Assembly: GCF_009827055.1 (NCBI RefSeq)
Contig: NZ_WUMK01000004.1
Location: forward strand, 124,001-188,000
Origin: Shinella kummerowiae
GTDB taxonomy: Bacteria > Pseudomonadota > Alphaproteobacteria > Rhizobiales > Rhizobiaceae
Direction of reading: 5' to 3'
DNA: 64,000 nt
A program made the position numbers and the translations under genes. Below are positions 3,024-11,768 of this stretch, in pieces. Below the pieces are notes generated by a model. It was not told where the DNA came from. It did not search any database and saw only the letters and a list, made by a program, of their open reading frames with translations. Position 1 is the first letter of the stretch; every line of letters begins with the position of its first letter.

Positions 3024-4298
3024 ATGTGGGGGCATACGTTGACTGCGGGTTCCATCATCGCGACGCTTTTGATTGTCTTTGCCGGCCTTCTGGCCGTGCC
3101 GGCTGTCAGCCATACCAATGCGGGAACCACGTTTTCGCTGATGGCCTCTTCCATGGCCTTCGTGGCCATGGGGATCGCCCAGTTCATGGCAACACGCCCG
3201 CCTTTCATCGAAAGGCTTTTCGGCGGACTTGACCGTATCTACCAGTTCCATCGCAAGATCGGCATCGCGGTGCTCTGTCTTATCCTGGTGCACTATTTCA
3301 TTGCACCGGATTTCCAGGGGCTTTCCGTGACGAGCGGGCTGAACCAGCTTGCGAAGACGGCGGGGGAGTGGGCGTTCTATGCCTTTGTCTTCCTGCTGGT
3401 CCTCAGCATCGTCAAGGTGATCCCGAAGACGCGTTTCCAGATTCCCTATCAGTACTGGCGCATCACGCACCGCTTCATCGGCCTGCTCTTCGTGATGGTG
3501 GCGTTCCATCAGATGTTCATCAAGCGCCCTTATGACGGCACGGCACTGCTGGCGACCTATCTCAATCTGTTCGCTCTCATCGGCATTGTAAGCTACGCCT
3601 ATACGCAGCTCCTGCCATGGCTTCGCACGCGCAGATACGAGGTTGTCAATGTCGAGCGCCATGACGGGGCGACGATCATTTCGGCGAGACCGATCGGCGG
3701 GAAGCTTCGGGCGAAGCCTGGCCAGTTCGGTTTCTTTCGCGTCAACAAGCCGGGTCTTCGCGAGCCGCATCCTTTCACCATCGCCGGCATCGAGGATGAT
3801 GGTTCCGTCCGTTTCGCCATCAAGCCACTCGGTGATTATACAAAGGCGCTGCGCGAGACGGTTGCGGTCGGCGATGCCCTGACGCTCGAGGGTGGCTACG
3901 GTCATTTCAATCATAAACGTGGCGGCAAGAAACAGATCTGGCTTGCCGGCGGCATCGGCGTCACACCCTTCCTCGCCATGGCGAGCCGGCTGAAAGGCGA
4001 CGAGGGGCAGGATATCCACATGGTTTATTGCGTGCGCGACGGCGCCGAGGCGATCGGCCTCGAGACGTTCCGCGCGCAGGCGGAAAAGCTCGAGAACTTC
4101 AACTTCGTTCTGCACAATTCGGCGACCGATGGGCGCTTCGATGCAACGAAGCTGGTCGCGGGCACATCGATGAACCCCGCCGAGGCCGACCTGTGGTTCT
4201 GCGGTCCACCGCCCTTGCGAATGGCCATTGAAAAAGGATTGAAGGAACTCGGCAAGGCACCACGCCGCGTCGAGTTCGAGCGTTTCGAGTTTCGGTAG
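3024..4298 (+). CDS. NOX/ferric-reductase-like transmembrane flavocytochrome
   Basis: The 424-residue protein has an N-terminal membrane domain of about six helices (residues 8-200) and a C-terminal FAD/NAD(P)H reductase half. Haem ligands are visible as H76-x13-H90 and H149-x12-H162, the paired spacing known for NOX and ferric reductases. The reductase half has HPFTIAG for flavin, LAGGIGVTPFLAM for nucleotide, and a late WFCGPPPLR motif. It should move electrons from cytoplasmic NAD(P)H across the membrane to oxygen, metal or a periplasmic acceptor. A stop codon lies directly before ATG 3024, which fixes the earliest start; the ribosome site is weak. The tetrahaem cytochrome gene starts 102 bp downstream on the same strand, so electron hand-over is possible but not shown. 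Confidence 0.85.
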   Translation: MWGHTLTAGSIIATLLIVFAGLLAVPAVSHTNAGTTFSLMASSMAFVAMGIAQFMATRPPFIERLFGGLDRIYQFHRKIGIAVLCLILVHYFIAPDFQGLSVTSGLNQLAKTAGEWAFYAFVFLLVLSIVKVIPKTRFQIPYQYWRITHRFIGLLFVMVAFHQMFIKRPYDGTALLATYLNLFALIGIVSYAYTQLLPWLRTRRYEVVNVERHDGATIISARPIGGKLRAKPGQFGFFRVNKPGLREPHPFTIAGIEDDGSVRFAIKPLGDYTKALRETVAVGDALTLEGGYGHFNHKRGGKKQIWLAGGIGVTPFLAMASRLKGDEGQDIHMVYCVRDGAEAIGLETFRAQAEKLENFNFVLHNSATDGRFDATKLVAGTSMNPAEADLWFCGPPPLRMAIEKGLKELGKAPRRVEFERFEFR

Positions 4299-4400
4299 GA
4301 TAGTTCCCGAAGAAACTGCGAAGCGGTTTTGCATCCGGAATTGTGTGAGAGATTGAATTTCCAGCCGGTCCGCCGGCCTCTTGGAGCGAGGGAACAAGCC

Positions 4401-7400
4401 ATGCGCATGTTCAAGACATCACTTTCCCGTCGGCGCTCGGGCATTGCCGCAACGCTTGGCCTTGCCATGTTGACCTTCTGTCCCATCGGGGCATCGGCGA
4501 TCGACCAGTTCGCGTCGGATGCGTTCGGCACCTACCAGCCGAATGCCGACAACGGCAAGGTCGTGTTCGGCGCCGCTGGCTGTGGCGCCTGCCATGGCTC
4601 GGGCGACAACACCGAACTGCTGTCCGGCGGCATGGAAATGCAGACGGCGATCGGGAAATTCTTCGCGCCAAACATCTCCGCCCATCCGAACGGCATCGGC
4701 GGCTGGTCCAATGCGGACTTCCTGAATGCCGTGATGGTCGGCCTCGACAAGGAAGGCAACAACCTTTACCCGGTCATGCCCTATACGTCCTATGGCGGCA
4801 TGAAGCCGGAGGACGTGCTGGATATCAAAGCCTATATCGAGACGCTGCCGCAATCGGATGCCGCCTCGCAAGAGCATGAGATTGCCTTCCCGTTCAACCG
4901 GCAGACCACGCTCACACTTTGGAAGCGCAGCCACTTCACCGTGCAGGCTTACCAGCCGCGCGAGGAAACCCAGATGGAGCGTGGCCGCTATCTCATCGAG
5001 AATGTCGGTGGCTGCGGTGATTGCCACACGCCGCGCACCACGACCTATGGCCTTGATCTCGCCCGTGCCTATGAGGGTGAAAAGGGCCTGACCGGCGCTG
5101 TCGCACCGGATATCACCAAGGCGCGCATGAGCGGGCTGGCGTCCCACGAGGTCTTCACCAAGGGCCTGATCGACGAGGGCAAGAAACTCTCCGGTTCGCC
5201 GCTGTCGGATCCGGTCATGCGCCGCATCGCACAGGGCCTTTCGACGCTGTCCGATGAAGACAAGCAGGCCATGTATGCCTTCCTTGCCGATCGCGAGGTG
5301 AAGGTGACACCGGTCGAGACCAGCACTGCCCCGGTCTGTAGCGAAGCGACGGCCGAATCCGCGCTCAGCGCCGGGGGTGGCAGTGCGGAATTGGCCTCGG
5401 CAGCCGATGCCTTCATCGGCAAATATTGCCGCAACTGTCATGGTCCGGGCGAAAGCTCGCAGGGCTCTTTCCCGTCGGGCGACCTAGCCTCGATTGCCGC
5501 CAACCCGGCCTTCGTAACGCCCGGCGACGCTGCCAAATCTCTGCTTTACACCAGCGTCACCAGCGGCCGCATGCCGCTCGGCAAACGCCCGAGCGACGCC
5601 GAAGTGCAGGGTCTGGCCGACTGGATCAACTCGCTGAACCAATCGGATATCCCGACAGCGGTTTCCGCAACGCAGACCAAGCGCTCGCGGCCGATGCTGA
5701 AATATCTCGATTTCGTCGAGCTGGCGCTGCGCGACATTTCGGAGGTGGACGAACACGACCAGCCGTTCATGCGCTATTTCAGCTACCGCGACCAGTACAA
5801 CGGCATGATGAGCTGCGAGACGCATGAAACGTTCCTGAAGCGCATGAAGGTTCTCGCCGGTGGCTTCAAGAAGCTTTTGAACTCGCTCTCCTACGGGCCG
5901 GAGCTTGTGCTGCCCGAGGAAGTGGAAGGATCCGACGGCCTGCTCGTTCGCGTCGATCTGCGCGACCTCGAATGGAGCCAGGAAGACTACGATTTCCTGA
6001 TCAACGAGTATTTCTATGGTGTGGATCCGGCGAGCGACGCCCAGCTGCACTCTTTGGCCAAGGCGACGCAGAGCCAGTTGCCGATCATGCGCGTCGACTG
6101 GTTCATGAGCAACGGCGCACGGCCGAAGGTCTACAACCGCCTCATGAAGCTGCCGACCAATATTTCGGAGCTTGAAAAGCGCTTCCAGGTGCCTGTCGAG
6201 CAGAATATCGAGCGCCGCCGCATCGTTCGTGCGGGCTTCGCCGACGGTTCCTCGGGCGTTTCCGATCACAACCGCATGCTGGAGCGGCACGACATGCCGT
6301 TTGGCGGCTACTACTGGAAGTCCTATGACTTTGCCGGCGACGTCGGCAAGCAGGTGCTGAAGCGCTTCCCGGCGGGTCCGGAAGGCGTTCGCCTGAAGGC
6401 TGGTCTCGAAGCCTTCGACCATGACGGCGGCGAAATGATCTTCTCGCTTCCGAACGGCATGCAGGGCTACTATCTCTCGACCGACAAGGGCGACCAGCTC
6501 GACATCGGCCCGACGGCGATCGTCTCCTTCCGCAAGCGGCCGATCGGCAAGGGTGTGGAGATCATCAACGCCCGCTCGTGCTTCGACTGCCATTTCGACG
6601 GCATTCTCTCCAAGCGCGACCAGCTGCGTGAGCATATCGAAACCTCCACGCTGTTCTCCAAGGACCAGCAGGACGAGCTGCTCGCCGTCTATGTGCCGCA
6701 GGAGGAACTGAACGAGGTCTACAAGCGCGACACGGACCGTTTTGTCGCCGCGCTCGATCGCCTCGGCATCACGGAAGCAACGTCCGGCGGCGGCAAGACC
6801 AGCCTGAAAGCGCCGGGTGGGGCGGAAATCTTCACCTACTTCGCCGACAAGTATGAGGACGAGTTGAACTTCGAGCAGCTGGCTGCCGAGTTCGACATGA
6901 CGCCGGAGGAGTTCTCCTCCGACATCCGCCGCCTGACCGACGTGAATGCCCTGCGCATCGGTATCGACTGGGTTGCGACGCTCGAATCGGGTGCCACGAT
7001 CCCGCGCACCGAGGTCGAGGAGCAATATGCCTTCATGCTGGAACCACTGCTGCAGCTGGAACCGCTGAAGCGCGGCGTCAATCCGGACGTTGCCGCCAAC
7101 AACACCGGCGATGCCTCCTACAATAAGCCGGCCGTGGACAATACGGGCTATCAGCAACCGGAGCAGAAGCAGGAGCAGGCGACCGGCGGCGAGCAGTACC
7201 CGGCCAACGACGCCTATGTCACGCCGGCCTACAAGCAGGACGACAAGGCGCAGGCTGAAAAGGTCAAGCTTGCCCTGCATGTCCCGTCGACAAGTGCGAA
7301 GGTGGGGGACTATCTGAGCTTCGAGCTCAGCACGAACCATGCCTGCGAGCTTCAGGTGATGTATGTGGAGGACACCGGCAATGTGGAGATCATTCCGGAT

Positions 7401-7685
7401 GTGATGATCGGCAACACGACGCTGAATGTCGGAGAACGCCGCCTGATCCCGCAGCCGGGCACGGGCAACCTGACCTTCGATTCGCCGTCGCCCGGCGAAA
7501 CGATGCTCGCCTACTGCAAGATCGGCGGCCTCGGCGACCAGAAACTGACGGCCGAGCAGGCCAAGCAGCTGGCTGCCGGTTCGAAGCAGCCGACAACCCG
7601 CGGCATCGCGGTCAACCTCGCCAAGCAGGCCGAGAAGGACAACGGTGCGGCCGGTCTCCAGATGGTGACCTTCGAGATCAAATGA
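4401..7685 (+). CDS. Large periplasmic tetrahaem cytochrome c with DUF4384 domain
   Basis: This 1094-residue protein starts at ATG 4401 after GAGCGAGGGA. It has a signal peptide ending near ASA (residue 33). Four CxxCH haem motifs are present: CGACH 61-65, CGDCH 205-209, CRNCH 343-347 and CFDCH 727-731. The first two lie in paired class I cytochrome c domains, and the third in another c-type domain. The fourth sits in a long domain with NRMLERH, YYWKSYDFAG and FDHDGGEMIFSLPNG, like uncharacterised cytochromes of planctomycetes and proteobacteria. After a Gln/Glu-rich linker (about 905-950), residues 955-1040 resemble DUF4384. The same linker and DUF4384 type recur in the caspase-like gene at 10221, which suggests joint assembly. 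Function is unknown; periplasmic electron transfer or redox sensing is inferred. Confidence 0.85.
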   Translation: MRMFKTSLSRRRSGIAATLGLAMLTFCPIGASAIDQFASDAFGTYQPNADNGKVVFGAAGCGACHGSGDNTELLSGGMEMQTAIGKFFAPNISAHPNGIGGWSNADFLNAVMVGLDKEGNNLYPVMPYTSYGGMKPEDVLDIKAYIETLPQSDAASQEHEIAFPFNRQTTLTLWKRSHFTVQAYQPREETQMERGRYLIENVGGCGDCHTPRTTTYGLDLARAYEGEKGLTGAVAPDITKARMSGLASHEVFTKGLIDEGKKLSGSPLSDPVMRRIAQGLSTLSDEDKQAMYAFLADREVKVTPVETSTAPVCSEATAESALSAGGGSAELASAADAFIGKYCRNCHGPGESSQGSFPSGDLASIAANPAFVTPGDAAKSLLYTSVTSGRMPLGKRPSDAEVQGLADWINSLNQSDIPTAVSATQTKRSRPMLKYLDFVELALRDISEVDEHDQPFMRYFSYRDQYNGMMSCETHETFLKRMKVLAGGFKKLLNSLSYGPELVLPEEVEGSDGLLVRVDLRDLEWSQEDYDFLINEYFYGVDPASDAQLHSLAKATQSQLPIMRVDWFMSNGARPKVYNRLMKLPTNISELEKRFQVPVEQNIERRRIVRAGFADGSSGVSDHNRMLERHDMPFGGYYWKSYDFAGDVGKQVLKRFPAGPEGVRLKAGLEAFDHDGGEMIFSLPNGMQGYYLSTDKGDQLDIGPTAIVSFRKRPIGKGVEIINARSCFDCHFDGILSKRDQLREHIETSTLFSKDQQDELLAVYVPQEELNEVYKRDTDRFVAALDRLGITEATSGGGKTSLKAPGGAEIFTYFADKYEDELNFEQLAAEFDMTPEEFSSDIRRLTDVNALRIGIDWVATLESGATIPRTEVEEQYAFMLEPLLQLEPLKRGVNPDVAANNTGDASYNKPAVDNTGYQQPEQKQEQATGGEQYPANDAYVTPAYKQDDKAQAEKVKLALHVPSTSAKVGDYLSFELSTNHACELQVMYVEDTGNVEIIPDVMIGNTTLNVGERRLIPQPGTGNLTFDSPSPGETMLAYCKIGGLGDQKLTAEQAKQLAAGSKQPTTRGIAVNLAKQAEKDNGAAGLQMVTFEIK

Positions 7686-7694
7686 TAACAGGGG

Positions 7695-7714
7695 CAGGGG
7701 CTTTCGGGCCCCTG
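7695..7714 (+). promoter_or_regulatory. Intergenic hairpin between cytochrome and OmpA genes
   Basis: CAGGGGC (7695-7701) pairs with GCCCCTG (7708-7714) around a 6-nt loop, ten bases after the cytochrome stop. No T-tract follows, so read-through is expected. It may act as an RNA-stability or processing element. Confidence 0.45.
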
Positions 7715-7750
7715 TCCATGGCGACCACGAGGATAAGGGCTGGACTGACA

Positions 7751-8647
7751 ATGCTGATGCGATCCCTGGCGGTGACACTCTTCTTACTGGCTGGAGCCGC
7801 GCCGGCCGCGGCGGCCTGCGATGCCTTCACCGGCGTCATCGAGGCGTTCAATGCCGGCGACGAGCAGAAGGCACGCTCCTTTGCCGAAACCGCCGGCACG
7901 GCCAATTGCAGCGCAAACGAGCGCACCCTGGTCGGTCGCGTCGCGGCTCTGACGGCCTTCAACCGCATCTCGACGGCGGTGGGCAATGGCGGAACGCTGT
8001 CCGACCACCGGCAGGAGCTGGAAGACCTCCAGCGGCAGTATGGCGGACCCTGGCAGGTTTTCGACGCGCTGGGCGATCTTGCCCGTGAGCGCAAGGACTA
8101 CGAGCAGGCAGCACGGTTCTACCAGATTGCACTGGAAGACGGATCGAACGAGACGCTGACGCCGGACTGGATGGCGCCGGACGAACAATACATTCTGCGT
8201 CTCGACAAGATGGCGAGCGAAATGCGGCTTGCCGCGCCCCGCCCGGTGAAGCTTGCCATGCGCGGCGGGTGCAAGGTTTCGTTCCGGGGCGTGACGATCA
8301 AGAAGAAGTCGACGCCGGTGCGCTACGTCTTCGGCACGGCGGATTTTGCGCCGGAAGGCATCGAGGCGGCTAAGGATCTGGCCGAGTGCCTGAAGACTGT
8401 CAAACCCGGCTCGATCACGCTGATCGGGCATACCGATCCCGTCGGCTCCGCTGACGCGAACTACAAGCTGTCGCTCGCCCGCGCCGAAACGCTGAAGACC
8501 TATCTCCACGACGCCGGTTATGCCGGCACCATCACCACCGAGGGCAAGGGCGAAGACCAGCCCTTCAAGCCGGACGATGCCAGCGCCTATGACGCGGAAA
8601 CGCTGAACCAGTTGCACCGTCGCGTGGAAGTGGACGTGCAACAATGA
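7751..8647 (+). CDS. OmpA-family periplasmic protein
   Basis: From ATG 7751 the protein has 298 residues with a signal peptide ending at APAAAA (about residue 22). The N-terminal half is helical, with a TPR-like segment at 104-128. The C-terminal OmpA/MotB domain (about 190-298) contains LIGHTDPVGS (224-233), an NYKLSLARAETLK helix and the closing HRRVEVDV strand. Such domains bind peptidoglycan, so the protein may tether the neighbouring exported complex to the wall. A frame extends upstream to 7682, but 7751 gives a proper signal peptide and has a purine-rich site before it. Its TGA overlaps the ATG of the first caspase-like gene (ATGA), showing translational coupling. The domain call is firm; the role is inferred. 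Confidence 0.85.
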   Translation: MLMRSLAVTLFLLAGAAPAAAACDAFTGVIEAFNAGDEQKARSFAETAGTANCSANERTLVGRVAALTAFNRISTAVGNGGTLSDHRQELEDLQRQYGGPWQVFDALGDLARERKDYEQAARFYQIALEDGSNETLTPDWMAPDEQYILRLDKMASEMRLAAPRPVKLAMRGGCKVSFRGVTIKKKSTPVRYVFGTADFAPEGIEAAKDLAECLKTVKPGSITLIGHTDPVGSADANYKLSLARAETLKTYLHDAGYAGTITTEGKGEDQPFKPDDASAYDAETLNQLHRRVEVDVQQ

Positions 8648-10221
8648 TGAAGACTCTGCCCCGTCTGCTGGCGCTGTCTCTCGCCGTCGCCTTGCCGGCG
8701 CCGGTTTTCGCGGCACAGACCTACGCGCTCGTCGTCGGCGTCGACCAGTACCCGAACGATGTCAGTCTGGACGGTGCGGTGCGGGACGCGGAAGACGTTT
8801 ATCGTTCGATGACCGCGGCGGGCTTCACGACCACCAAGTTCACCAACGAGCAGGCCCGCAAGGACGATATCCGCAAGGCCTGGACCGACATGGTGGCACA
8901 GGCCGCCGCCGGCGATACGATCATCTTCACCTATGCGGGCCACGGTGCACAGATGCCCGAGCTTGTCGCGGGCGACGAGGCGGATGGCCTCGACGAGTTT
9001 CTTCAGCTGCCGGGTTTCGACCGCAACCGTTATGATGAAACATCCAACGAGATCATCGTCGACAACGAGATGAACGCCTGGTTTGCCGAGGCCGAGGGCA
9101 AGGGCGTGCATGTGCTGTTCGTCTCGGACAGCTGCTTTTCCGGTGGCATGAGCCGGTCGATCAAGGGCAAGAGCCGCCTCGCACCGGCCGTCAAGGTCAA
9201 GCTCGCGCCACCGTCGCAGGAGGCGATCGCCGGCGCCAATCTCAAGGAAATCAGCTTCAAGCAGGTGACGGTGCTGGCGGCCTCGCTGGAAAGCCAGCCG
9301 ACGCCGGAGGTCATCATCGACGGCGAGCCGCGCGGCGCTCTGAGCTGGAGCTTTGCCCGCGCCGTGGAGGGCAGCGCCGACCGCGATGGGGACGGCGTCA
9401 TTACCCGTATCGAGCTTGAAGACTATATCTTCTCCAATGTGAAGAACCGCTCGGAAGCCTTGCAGGTGCCGAACTTCATGCCGCAGGTGGCGCGTTCGGA
9501 TGGTGAGGTCGTCGTGACCTTGACGCGCGGCATCCCGGTCGCGAGCGGCAACACCACGACGACAGACACCGCTGATGACGGCGCGGCCGATGCGGGCAAG
9601 ACGGTCAAGACGGCGAAGGATCTCGGCTGGACGGGCAACATCGCCCTTCAGATCGACGGCACGGCAGACAAGCCGAAGAATGCCGATGGCACCGGGACGC
9701 CCTATCGCTGGGATGTGGCGGGCGGCGTCTTCTACACGCCGAATGGCGATGTCGCGGCCGAAAATGTCGGCGCGGACCGTATCCAGTCCGTAGTGGACAA
9801 ATATGTGCTGCTCGACTTCCTGAAGGCCATGGCCAGCCAGAATCCCGGTTCCGTGTCTTTGACGCCCACCAAGGATATATATGCTGCCGGCGATCGCCTG
9901 CGTTTCGACGCGCCGCCCGGCCGCTATCCGAACATGCTCGTCTTCAACCTCGCCAATACAGGCGAGGTGCAGTTCCTCGACATGCAGGCGGCGGGCACGA
10001 ACAGTTCCGAATTCAAGCTGACGGATGTCGAGGTCGTCAAACCGTTCGGCGCCGACCACCTCATCACGATCTGGACGGCCGAGCCAGTCGATGCGATCGG
10101 CGCGGTGCTGGCGGACAAGAACGTGACGGCCGAAGCCCTGCTGCGGGCGCTGACGACCCGTCTCGACGGCAAGGAAGCCGGCGTCGCCATTCAACCTCTC
10201 TACACGCGGGAAACGCTCTGA
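8644..10221 (+). CDS. Exported caspase-like (C14) protein 1
   Basis: This 525-residue protein has a signal peptide ending at VFAA (about residue 24). The p20-like core shows the catalytic dyad: His100 in TYAGHGAQ and Cys164 in SDSCFSGG, with the conserved acidic GDEADGLDE between them. This is typical of metacaspases and orthocaspases, which cut after Arg or Lys. Residues 246-257 (DRDGDGVITRIE) form a canonical EF-hand loop. The C-terminal part (about 395-480) looks like a diverged DUF4384 module. It is coupled by ATGA overlap to the OmpA-type gene and by TGATG to the next caspase-like gene. Export to the periplasm is unusual for this family. Activity and target are not shown. Confidence 0.88.
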   Translation: MMKTLPRLLALSLAVALPAPVFAAQTYALVVGVDQYPNDVSLDGAVRDAEDVYRSMTAAGFTTTKFTNEQARKDDIRKAWTDMVAQAAAGDTIIFTYAGHGAQMPELVAGDEADGLDEFLQLPGFDRNRYDETSNEIIVDNEMNAWFAEAEGKGVHVLFVSDSCFSGGMSRSIKGKSRLAPAVKVKLAPPSQEAIAGANLKEISFKQVTVLAASLESQPTPEVIIDGEPRGALSWSFARAVEGSADRDGDGVITRIELEDYIFSNVKNRSEALQVPNFMPQVARSDGEVVVTLTRGIPVASGNTTTTDTADDGAADAGKTVKTAKDLGWTGNIALQIDGTADKPKNADGTGTPYRWDVAGGVFYTPNGDVAAENVGADRIQSVVDKYVLLDFLKAMASQNPGSVSLTPTKDIYAAGDRLRFDAPPGRYPNMLVFNLANTGEVQFLDMQAAGTNSSEFKLTDVEVVKPFGADHLITIWTAEPVDAIGAVLADKNVTAEALLRALTTRLDGKEAGVAIQPLYTRETL

Positions 10222-11768
10222 TGATCCGTTACGCCGCCGCTCTTCTCCTGTCGCTTAGCCTTTTCTCCGGGGCGGAGGCCGCCGACCGGGCGCTCCTGAT
10301 CGGCATCGGCACCTACGCTTCGCTGCCTGAAAAAATGTTCCTCGAAGGGCCGAAGAACGATGTACCGCTGATCGAGAAGCTGCTGAAGGAGAAGCAGGGT
10401 TATGCGGCGGATTCCATCCGGGTCCTGCTCGACAAGGATGCGAGCCGCGCGTCAATCCTCGCCAACATCGACGAGTGGCTGGTCAACGGCACGCAGCCGG
10501 GCGACCGGGTCTATTTCTACTTCTCCGGTCACGGCCTTCAGGTGAAGGACGTGAGTGGCGACGAGGAGGACGGGCTGGACGAGGCGCTGTCGACCTATGA
10601 CATCGTTGCCGGCGATGGCGACTGGTCGAATGTCATTCTCGATGACGAGATCGATGCGATGCTGGCGAAGTTGAAGGATCGCGCCGTTTCCATCGTCATC
10701 GACGCCTGCCATTCGGGCACGATTTCACGCTCGCTGTCCACGGATGTCGGCGAAGCGCTGGAGAGCGCGCGCTTCCTGCCGCGGCCCTTCGCCAAACCGG
10801 TCGACGTGGTGAAGACGCGCGGCCTACGCATCGACGTTGCCGTGGTCGACAAGCCGGAGATCGCCAAGCAGAACGGCGTGGAGGCGTGGAGTGCGGCCTC
10901 GTCCTATCAGGTGGCCTGGGATGATACGCGCCTGCCGCCCGAAGAGCGGCACGGCGTTTTCACGCTCTCCTACGTCAATGGCCACGAGATTTCCGCTGCC
11001 GATAGCAATGGCAACGGTATCGTCTCCAACGCGGAGCTGCTCGAATATGTGAAGAAGCAGTCGCAGACCTATTGCGCCGCGCAAACGCAGTGCCAGGGTC
11101 TCGATCCGCAGCTGGAGGTCAATTACGCGCTGCTTGGTGCCAGCGCCGTCACGCCGGCCGCCGAAGGCGGGCAGCAGTATCAGCAGCCGCAGACCGGCGG
11201 CGAAACGCAGCAGAACCCCGACTACGGCAAGGTTGAGGAGGTCAAGGTCGAGAACACGCCGCAGACGGCTTACGTCGCAGCGGACCCGGTGGATGCCGTC
11301 GGTGACATTCTCGGCAAGCCGCAGACCGGCGATGTCACGGTGGCGCTCTCCTCCGACCACCTCAAGGCTGGCGATGCCTTCAAGATCAGCGTGACGAGCA
11401 GCACAGGCGGGCACCTCATCCTCTACGACGTCGACAAGGACGGCAAGGCGACGCAGATTTTCCCGAACGAGGCGGCGCAGAAGATCACGCCGCTGACGCC
11501 GAACATGCCGCTCACCATTCCCGACGACTATTACGGCTTCGATTTCGAGGCGGATGGCCCAAGCGAAAACGTGCTGGTGGCGATCGTCATCGCCGACGAT
11601 GTCGACCTCACCAAGGTCGCGCCCAACGACTACGGCCTGACCAAGGAACTGGATGCGCGCACCACGATCGCCGAGATCGCCGATACCCTGAAACAGACGT
11701 GGACGCGCGATGCTGAAAACCGCAGCGTCAACTGGTCGCTCGGGCTGCTGAAATATACGGTCTATTGA
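10221..11768 (+). CDS. Exported caspase-like (C14) protein 2 with DUF4384
   Basis: This 515-residue protein has a signal peptide ending at AEA (residue 20). The catalytic pair is His104 in YFSGHGLQ and Cys163 in IDACHSGT, with GDEEDGLDE between them. Residues 261-272 (DSNGNGIVSNAE) fit an EF-hand loop. A Gln-rich linker (about 318-345) leads to a clear DUF4384 domain (about 365-465) containing a DKDGKATQIFPN turn. The first codon shares a base with the stop of the previous gene, so the two caspase-like proteins should be made in similar amounts. They are clearly diverged, which argues against a very recent duplication. It converges on moeA 36 bp downstream with no clear hairpin between. The biological role is unknown. 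Confidence 0.88.
   Translation: MIRYAAALLLSLSLFSGAEAADRALLIGIGTYASLPEKMFLEGPKNDVPLIEKLLKEKQGYAADSIRVLLDKDASRASILANIDEWLVNGTQPGDRVYFYFSGHGLQVKDVSGDEEDGLDEALSTYDIVAGDGDWSNVILDDEIDAMLAKLKDRAVSIVIDACHSGTISRSLSTDVGEALESARFLPRPFAKPVDVVKTRGLRIDVAVVDKPEIAKQNGVEAWSAASSYQVAWDDTRLPPEERHGVFTLSYVNGHEISAADSNGNGIVSNAELLEYVKKQSQTYCAAQTQCQGLDPQLEVNYALLGASAVTPAAEGGQQYQQPQTGGETQQNPDYGKVEEVKVENTPQTAYVAADPVDAVGDILGKPQTGDVTVALSSDHLKAGDAFKISVTSSTGGHLILYDVDKDGKATQIFPNEAAQKITPLTPNMPLTIPDDYYGFDFEADGPSENVLVAIVIADDVDLTKVAPNDYGLTKELDARTTIAEIADTLKQTWTRDAENRSVNWSLGLLKYTVY

Follow-up and report, generated by a model that had tools for sequence, protein, structure and literature searches.

A NOX-type reductase, a tetrahaem cytochrome and exported caspases share a conserved gene set that looks like an undescribed tie between envelope redox state and protein cutting

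Introduction

Why should a transmembrane electron exporter, a multihaem cytochrome, a peptidoglycan-binding protein and two caspase-type proteases be encoded side by side? The question is raised by a block of five genes (3024-11768) within a 64,000-nucleotide stretch of the Shinella kummerowiae genome (contig NZ_WUMK01000004.1, positions 124,001 to 188,000), here called the window, whose numbering is used throughout. The block encodes FRD (a NOX-type flavocytochrome), CYT (a tetrahaem cytochrome), OMPA (an OmpA-type protein) and two C14 proteases, CASP1 and CASP2. The initial annotation had described them as five consecutive plus-strand genes, and all five open reading frames are present with the domains that it named (Pfam). 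At a probability of roughly one half, we favour the reading that the block is an envelope redox-proteolysis module, in which NAD(P)H supplies electrons to a haem relay and this relay controls proteolysis in the envelope. This reading builds on the cast of genes, their motifs and export-type N-termini, their conservation and the co-variation of input with output, as judged by sequence and comparison.

Conservation of the gene set

Relatives were identified using MID, a domain of CYT, in searches covering Pseudomonadota plus viral_contigs. Scanning named genomes with MID yielded 148 relatives. The best 80 of these were taken as loci and, together with 13 others, make up 93 loci, some being the same genome met twice. 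Dereplication by MID identity yielded 85 loci at 99.5%, 47 at 90% and 21 at 70%. The profiles for CASP and OMPA were refined by iteration over these same loci, the OMPA matches being generic, and some matches were checked with Pfam.

In every one of these loci that shows FRD (89/89), it immediately precedes CYT on the same strand. The four loci lacking FRD are three cut at a contig end and one short form (L044, on a 5.8-kb contig). A further locus beyond these 93, L164, departs from this adjacency, its FRD being about 6 kb distant and on the opposite strand. The possibility that the gene order is private to this strain, raised in the initial annotation, was not borne out: FRD-CYT-OMPA-CASP-CASP occurs in 46 of the 93 loci. 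The other loci contain the same cast, or parts of it, reordered or on other strands (e.g. CASP-OMPA-FRD-CYT and CASP-FRD-CYT-OMPA-CASP), and well over a dozen different orders were observed. The annotation of Neorhizobium petrolearium lists a caspase, OmpA, a ferredoxin reductase and a c-type cytochrome, in that order.

Among the 47 loci dereplicated at 90%, FRD was detected in 43, OMPA in 47 and C14 in 37. C14 or CHAT lies within 8 kb in 41 of them (40 plus L100, whose CHAT was recognized by Pfam), and FRD, OMPA and C14 or CHAT are all near CYT in 38 (37 plus L100); at 70% dereplication, C14 or CHAT was present in 17/21 loci. This recurrence in shuffled orders supports the earlier proposal that the genes form one functional unit. 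Six loci are protease-free: four (L091, L096, L042, L044) have less than 8 kb of sequence on at least one side, and the other two (L097, L101) are genuine misses. The window genome (6.34 Mb) has seven C14 genes, two of them in the block, and six module-bearing genomes have 1-7 each. At seven genes per 6.34 Mb, a C14 gene would fall within 8 kb of a given gene by chance with a frequency of about 0.02, to be compared with the 37/47 observed. An accidental or neutral cluster of unrelated genes, in favour of which it may be said that the flanks are common to close relatives only (ccdA in 11 loci), is thus hardly credible, since the same cast is found in 38/47 dereplicated loci in many orders and co-occurrence of this degree is found in distant lineages.

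The best 80 relatives come from Shinella, Rhizobium, Ensifer, Pararhizobium, Cucumibacter, Roseibium, Hoeflea, Ancylobacter, Chelatococcus, Methylopila, Rhodobacteraceae and others. Within the GTDB family of the window genome (151 genomes, this one included), 139 gave a CYT match at E <= 1e-30. Most of the matches listed are confined to a widespread two-haem cytochrome, and among those listed MID is reached in at least 13/151 (G000, G075, G011, G057, G103, G003, G071, G053, G144, G110, G001, G012 and G150, the last a short form). In a sample of Pseudomonadota MID was found in 3/398 genomes, one of them the window genome. Plasmids and phages were considered as carriers and rejected: at least 80% of CYT is covered in one of 72,556 plasmid records, with MID in one record, and two phage records gave partial matches, with MID in two contigs of viral_contigs.

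Haem form and protease type change together

One family of the Rhodobacteraceae type (f17), in which MID was found in 13/198 genomes, contains two forms of CYT (the MID of L163 is identical to that of L113). The two-haem form (n = 8) has the cbb3-type haem, the MID haem and the DUF4384-like tail. It has a trypsin-type gene upstream (8/8) and OmpA downstream (8/8), and neither FRD (0/8) nor C14 (0/8) was found within about 19 kb. The four-haem form (n = 5) is accompanied by FRD (5/5) and C14 (5/5), with 2-5 caspases per locus, and by no trypsin-type gene (0/5); OMPA is present in four of the five, and the L163 copy is about 6 kb off on the other strand. The protease of L138, the only short-form locus run through Pfam, has Trypsin_2 and SH3 domains; its protease part served to identify the other trypsin-type genes by similarity, and 3/8 short-form loci gave a match with a strict His/Ser motif script.

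FRD and haem form are associated within the family (Fisher p 0.0008, for what amounts to one switch). In a MID tree the long and short forms fall on two sides of one branch (support 99/94, long branches present), and the contrast therefore represents one evolutionary switch. Because FRD accompanies the two-haem extension, this N-terminal part of four-haem CYT is likely the site of electron entry. An exported-type protease is the recurrent output in each version of the system, and the eight two-haem forms without FRD and caspase show that NOX plus caspase is one of the interchangeable options within a broader system of haem protein and protease.

The NOX-type reductase

The Pfam domains of FRD are Ferric_reduct, FAD_binding_8 and NAD_binding_1, and residues 29-423 match SpNOX (8qt6) with E 3.8e-38. 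The haem ligands His76, His90, His149 and His162 are invariant in 90/91 alignment rows, as are HPFT (the FAD motif HPF[TS]) and CGP, the remaining row being a gap in both cases; the two histidine pairs are spaced as in SpNOX. The NAD(P)H motif GGxG is present, with the first G replaced by A in four rows. Simple hydropathy gave four segments, for a family with six transmembrane helices, and Ferric_reduct spans 43-159. By these sequence criteria FRD is an SpNOX homologue with the key motifs. An apparent FRD-CYT gene fusion in L108 and L124 was discarded, as the long CYT frames merely extend upstream across FRD in another frame.

The cytochrome and its MID domain

CYT contains Cytochrom_C and Cytochrome_CBB3 domains (Pfam) and four CxxCH motifs, which are found in 87/93 loci; the six exceptions comprise three truncated contigs, a contig riddled with X that was met twice, and a short form. 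The window MID shares 97% identity with the MID of Shinella sp. SUS2. Structure prediction was run on a single MID-bearing protein. The two best matches of MID were beta-sheet cytochrome c' and cytochrome P460, with modest Z, and each of them extends across the haem motif of MID. In 7ead, the P460-domain protein matched, the haem motif lies near the C-terminus. The model thus hints weakly at a P460/c'-beta-like fold. MID as a sequence relative of P460 was rejected: PF16694 is absent from the matches of 45 MID members, P460 is not among the PDB sequence matches of MID, and hhalign aligned MID with P460 over 20 columns around CxxCH only.

MID-like sequences were also seen in two records of viral type. 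A 595-kb uncultured phage record (L135, LR756511.1; 5683-6861) has a stand-alone, export-type, mono-haem MID-like protein, and a contig filed as viral (L137, 4497-8777) encodes cytochrome c, MID and leucine-rich repeats; the latter contig looks poribacterial.

The exported caspases and their substitutes

CASP1 and CASP2 are Peptidase_C14 proteins with a p20 domain and a His-Cys dyad, the Pfam match stopping at model position 137 (CASP1) and 187 (CASP2) of 233. The dyad is intact in 165/172 C14 rows. In the CASP2 copies of L035, L065, L066 and L076 one residue is replaced; the remaining three exceptions (L051, L121, L124) are fragmentary or poorly aligned. CASP2 is seemingly decaying in several Ensifer or related strains (L035, L038, L065, L066, L076), where a dyad residue is replaced or the gene is split.

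A strict EF-type calcium loop was detected in 50/54 CASP1-like and 41/52 CASP2-like frames (91/106 together), compared with 7/59 other open reading frames and 0/165 reversed sequences. It lies 80-110 residues past the catalytic Cys in the 94 frames where both could be placed. The description of these proteins as exported caspases therefore stands, with an intact dyad, calcium-loop motifs and export-type N-termini.

CHAT and C14 (caspases) belong to the same protease clan. Four loci from Roseibium and Hoeflea (L094, L099, L100, L110) encode a CHAT protein of 1400-1660 amino acids with no C14 within 8 kb; in L100 a TPR-CHAT protein, missed by phmmer and found with Pfam, lies immediately upstream of FRD. 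In N. petrolearium (L032; 7364-8518, 15574-19147), four related exported-type proteins that flank the block are similar to the N-terminus of CHAT proteins encoded at other loci.

Layout of the locus

Feature coordinates are collected in Table 1. The initial annotation had claimed that the last three genes are joined by overlaps. With the first starts, OMPA and CASP1 do overlap by 4 bases and CASP1 and CASP2 by 1 base; the 4-base overlap of CYT with OMPA exists only with the first OMPA start and is doubtful, as the OMPA signal peptide fits start 7751 better than 7682 and the overlap may be unused. CYT starts at ATG 4401, preceded by gagggaacaagcc; a longer frame from TTG 4329 is unlikely. All four soluble products have export-type N-termini, as had been proposed, the calls being made with a hydropathy/AxA script and not with SignalP. 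A sigma-70 promoter scan found none where 1.8 were expected in shuffles, and is thus uninformative.

Two further links between cytochrome and caspases had been suggested. The Gln-rich linkers said to be common to both are not kept across homologues in alignment. DUF4384 does connect CYT with CASP2: it scores above the Pfam cut-off in CASP2 (50.9 bits vs 27) and below it in the window CYT (17.8 bits vs 27, E 0.0036), 11/12 CYT homologues match at E <= 0.01, and hhalign gave a probability of 55% for the two tails. The connection does not extend to CASP1, whose tail reached only 1-3% against that of CYT or CASP2, and which therefore has no detectable DUF4384.

Table 1. Coordinates of the block and its features in the window
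Feature	Position	Strand	Basis or remarks
FRD, NOX-family transmembrane flavocytochrome, 424 aa (amino acids)	3024..4298	+	Pfam, SpNOX similarity
FRD haem His codons	start 3249, 3291, 3468, 3507	+	
CYT, exported tetrahaem cytochrome, 1094 aa	4401..7685	+	Pfam, alignment, CxxCH count; layout: two-haem part, cbb3-type haem, MID domain, DUF4384-like tail
CYT haem motif 1, CGACH	4581..4595	+	CxxCH motif
CYT haem motif 2, CGDCH	5013..5027	+	CxxCH motif
CYT haem motif 3, CRNCH	5427..5441	+	CxxCH motif
MID domain, 466 aa	5667..7064	+	no Pfam family
MID sub-part resembling beta-sheet cytochrome c' / cytochrome P460	6150-6629	+	predicted structure
CYT haem motif 4, CFDCH	6579..6593	+	CxxCH motif; within MID
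DUF4384-like stretch of CYT	7299..7499	+	E 0.0036, below cut-off
OMPA, exported, C-terminal OmpA peptidoglycan-binding domain (8324-8581)	7682..8647	+	start may be 7751
CASP1, exported C14 protease	8644..10221	+	His100 (8941), Cys164 (9133), EF-type loop near 9376
CASP2, exported C14 protease	10221..11768	+	His104 (10530), Cys163 (10707), EF-type loop 10992-11057, DUF4384 11361-11585

Several genes were noted around the block. A minus-strand gene diverging from it (525-2480), presumably an RTX metalloprotease of the serralysin kind, has a relative in 30/93 loci. Genes of one similarity cluster lie near the block in L089, L092, L096, L105 and L106, the L089 copy being an M15 D-Ala-D-Ala dipeptidase (Pfam). 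In Shinella and R. alarense the block is followed on the same strand by a gene that we take to be ccdA-like (L033, L034, L046-L049, L052, L053, L055, L056). The window itself has no such gene after the block, but instead, on the other strand, what is presumably a moeA-like gene. A general role for the downstream ccdA was rejected, since only Shinella and R. alarense have it in that position, apart from L099, where it lies on the opposite strand.

Discussion

In the envelope redox-proteolysis module that we favour, FRD would take electrons from cytosolic NAD(P)H, move them across the inner membrane by way of FAD and two b-haems, and pass them to the two-haem N-terminal part of CYT, a transfer that we infer from constant adjacency and joint absence. 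From there they would travel through the cbb3-type haem to the haem of MID, and the redox or ligand state (with oxygen, NO or similar ligands) could be read as shape. OMPA would anchor the assembly at peptidoglycan, and DUF4384-like parts may join CYT to an exported protease. A change in the state of the relay, probably together with calcium, would release or license the caspases to cut envelope proteins, a task presumably performed by CHAT or trypsin-type proteases in other lineages. Such cutting might serve a stress response or self-killing.

The strongest alternative is a periplasmic reductase, in which FRD feeds CYT, a P460-like MID haem detoxifies NO, hydroxylamine or peroxide, and the proteases are house-keeping enzymes that mature or clear damaged cytochrome and envelope proteins. 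The resemblance of the predicted MID structure to P460/c'-beta and the persistence of the two-haem form without FRD fit this alternative, and the accessible part of PMC5676040 offers a precedent in MsrQ-MsrP, where a membrane haem protein feeds a periplasmic enzyme. However, up to five C14 genes per locus (L166) and the swaps for CHAT or trypsin-type proteases would seem more than a maturase needs, and we consider this explanation possible, if rather unlikely.

In a module for defence or suicide, an assault on the envelope (by phage, bacteriocin or contact killing) would disturb the relay, free the caspases and kill the cell. Such a module would suit the patchy spread (at least 13/151, 3/398 and 13/198 genomes) and the exchangeable protease outputs, and the PADLOC caspase model does match the C14 domains. 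Yet no further PADLOC 2.0.0 component was found among six proteins except for weak MotB-type matches of OMPA. Moreover, the soluble parts look exported, whereas those of most abortive systems are not known to be. We regard defence as improbable.

A role in extracellular electron transfer or metal reduction, with the proteases as unrelated passengers, would account for a multihaem cytochrome adjoining a ferric-reductase-type protein and for the weak MtrC/MtrF-like match in 8/12 CYT. The absence of an outer-membrane porin among the five block proteins (Pfam) and the retention of proteases despite shuffled order make it very improbable.

Taken together, the gene set, which is conserved among bacteria of soil and sea, looks like an undescribed tie between envelope redox state and protein cutting. 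It makes the natural acceptor of a bacterial NOX testable, as a tetrahaem cytochrome gene is directly next in 89/89 FRD loci. It likewise makes the role and the switch of exported bacterial caspases testable, as the form of the haem relay changes together with protease type. A more specific version, that the c-type cytochrome gates envelope caspase-type proteases and that the redox or gas-ligand state of a P460-like MID haem, set by NOX, licenses cutting, is tentative and, on balance, unlikely. Were the cytochrome to control the caspases, Alphaproteobacteria, from which mitochondria are thought to derive, would contain a cytochrome-caspase switch of their own, a bacterial and perhaps convergent counterpart of the mitochondrial cytochrome c-to-caspase switch.

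Comparison with known systems

The initial annotation knew of no described system of this composition, and a literature search with most subscription papers outside its reach likewise found no paper joining these parts. We know of no proteases in the MsrQ-MsrP system, whose acceptor is a molybdopterin enzyme, unlike the tetrahaem cytochrome of the FRD block. The two are alike in that a membrane haem protein of the same superfamily feeds a periplasmic protein (PMC5676040, accessible part). SpNOX resembles FRD over its full length, with two equally spaced bis-His pairs, HPFT, GGIG and CGP. According to the accessible parts of the sources, it reduces cytochrome c directly (PMC5676040) and its natural electron acceptor is left open (PMC11564096), whereas FRD adjoins a multihaem cytochrome gene. 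Cytochrome P460 and beta-sheet cytochrome c' are the two best structural matches of MID; they differ in giving no sequence match, and MID, at 466 amino acids, has extra helical parts.

Alphaproteobacterial orthocaspases share the C14 p20 domain and the His-Cys dyad with the block caspases, and some pseudo-orthocaspases carry a DUF4384 tail (PMC6426788, accessible part). The block caspases differ from them in being operon-linked to NOX and a cytochrome; neither 'cytochrome' nor 'OmpA' occurs in the main text of that paper. Some cyanobacterial orthocaspases also have DUF4384, as reviewed in the accessible part of PMC7475262. Bacterial conflict systems with caspases are covered by PMC7159879, in whose accessible part cytochrome is mentioned twice (once in a reference title), both times for the Apaf-1 apoptosome.

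No NTPase/WD40 scaffold or STAND/NB-ARC domain was found in the five block proteins (Pfam). The block is also unlike the apoptosome in being exported rather than cytosolic and in having a multihaem cytochrome, and descent of one from the other is unsupported. A link between cytochrome c and cell death has been hypothesized, on other grounds, to come from the alphaproteobacterial endosymbiont (PMC7641849, accessible part). What the block and the cytochrome c - Apaf-1 - caspase apoptosome have in common is a c-type cytochrome linked with caspase-type proteases.
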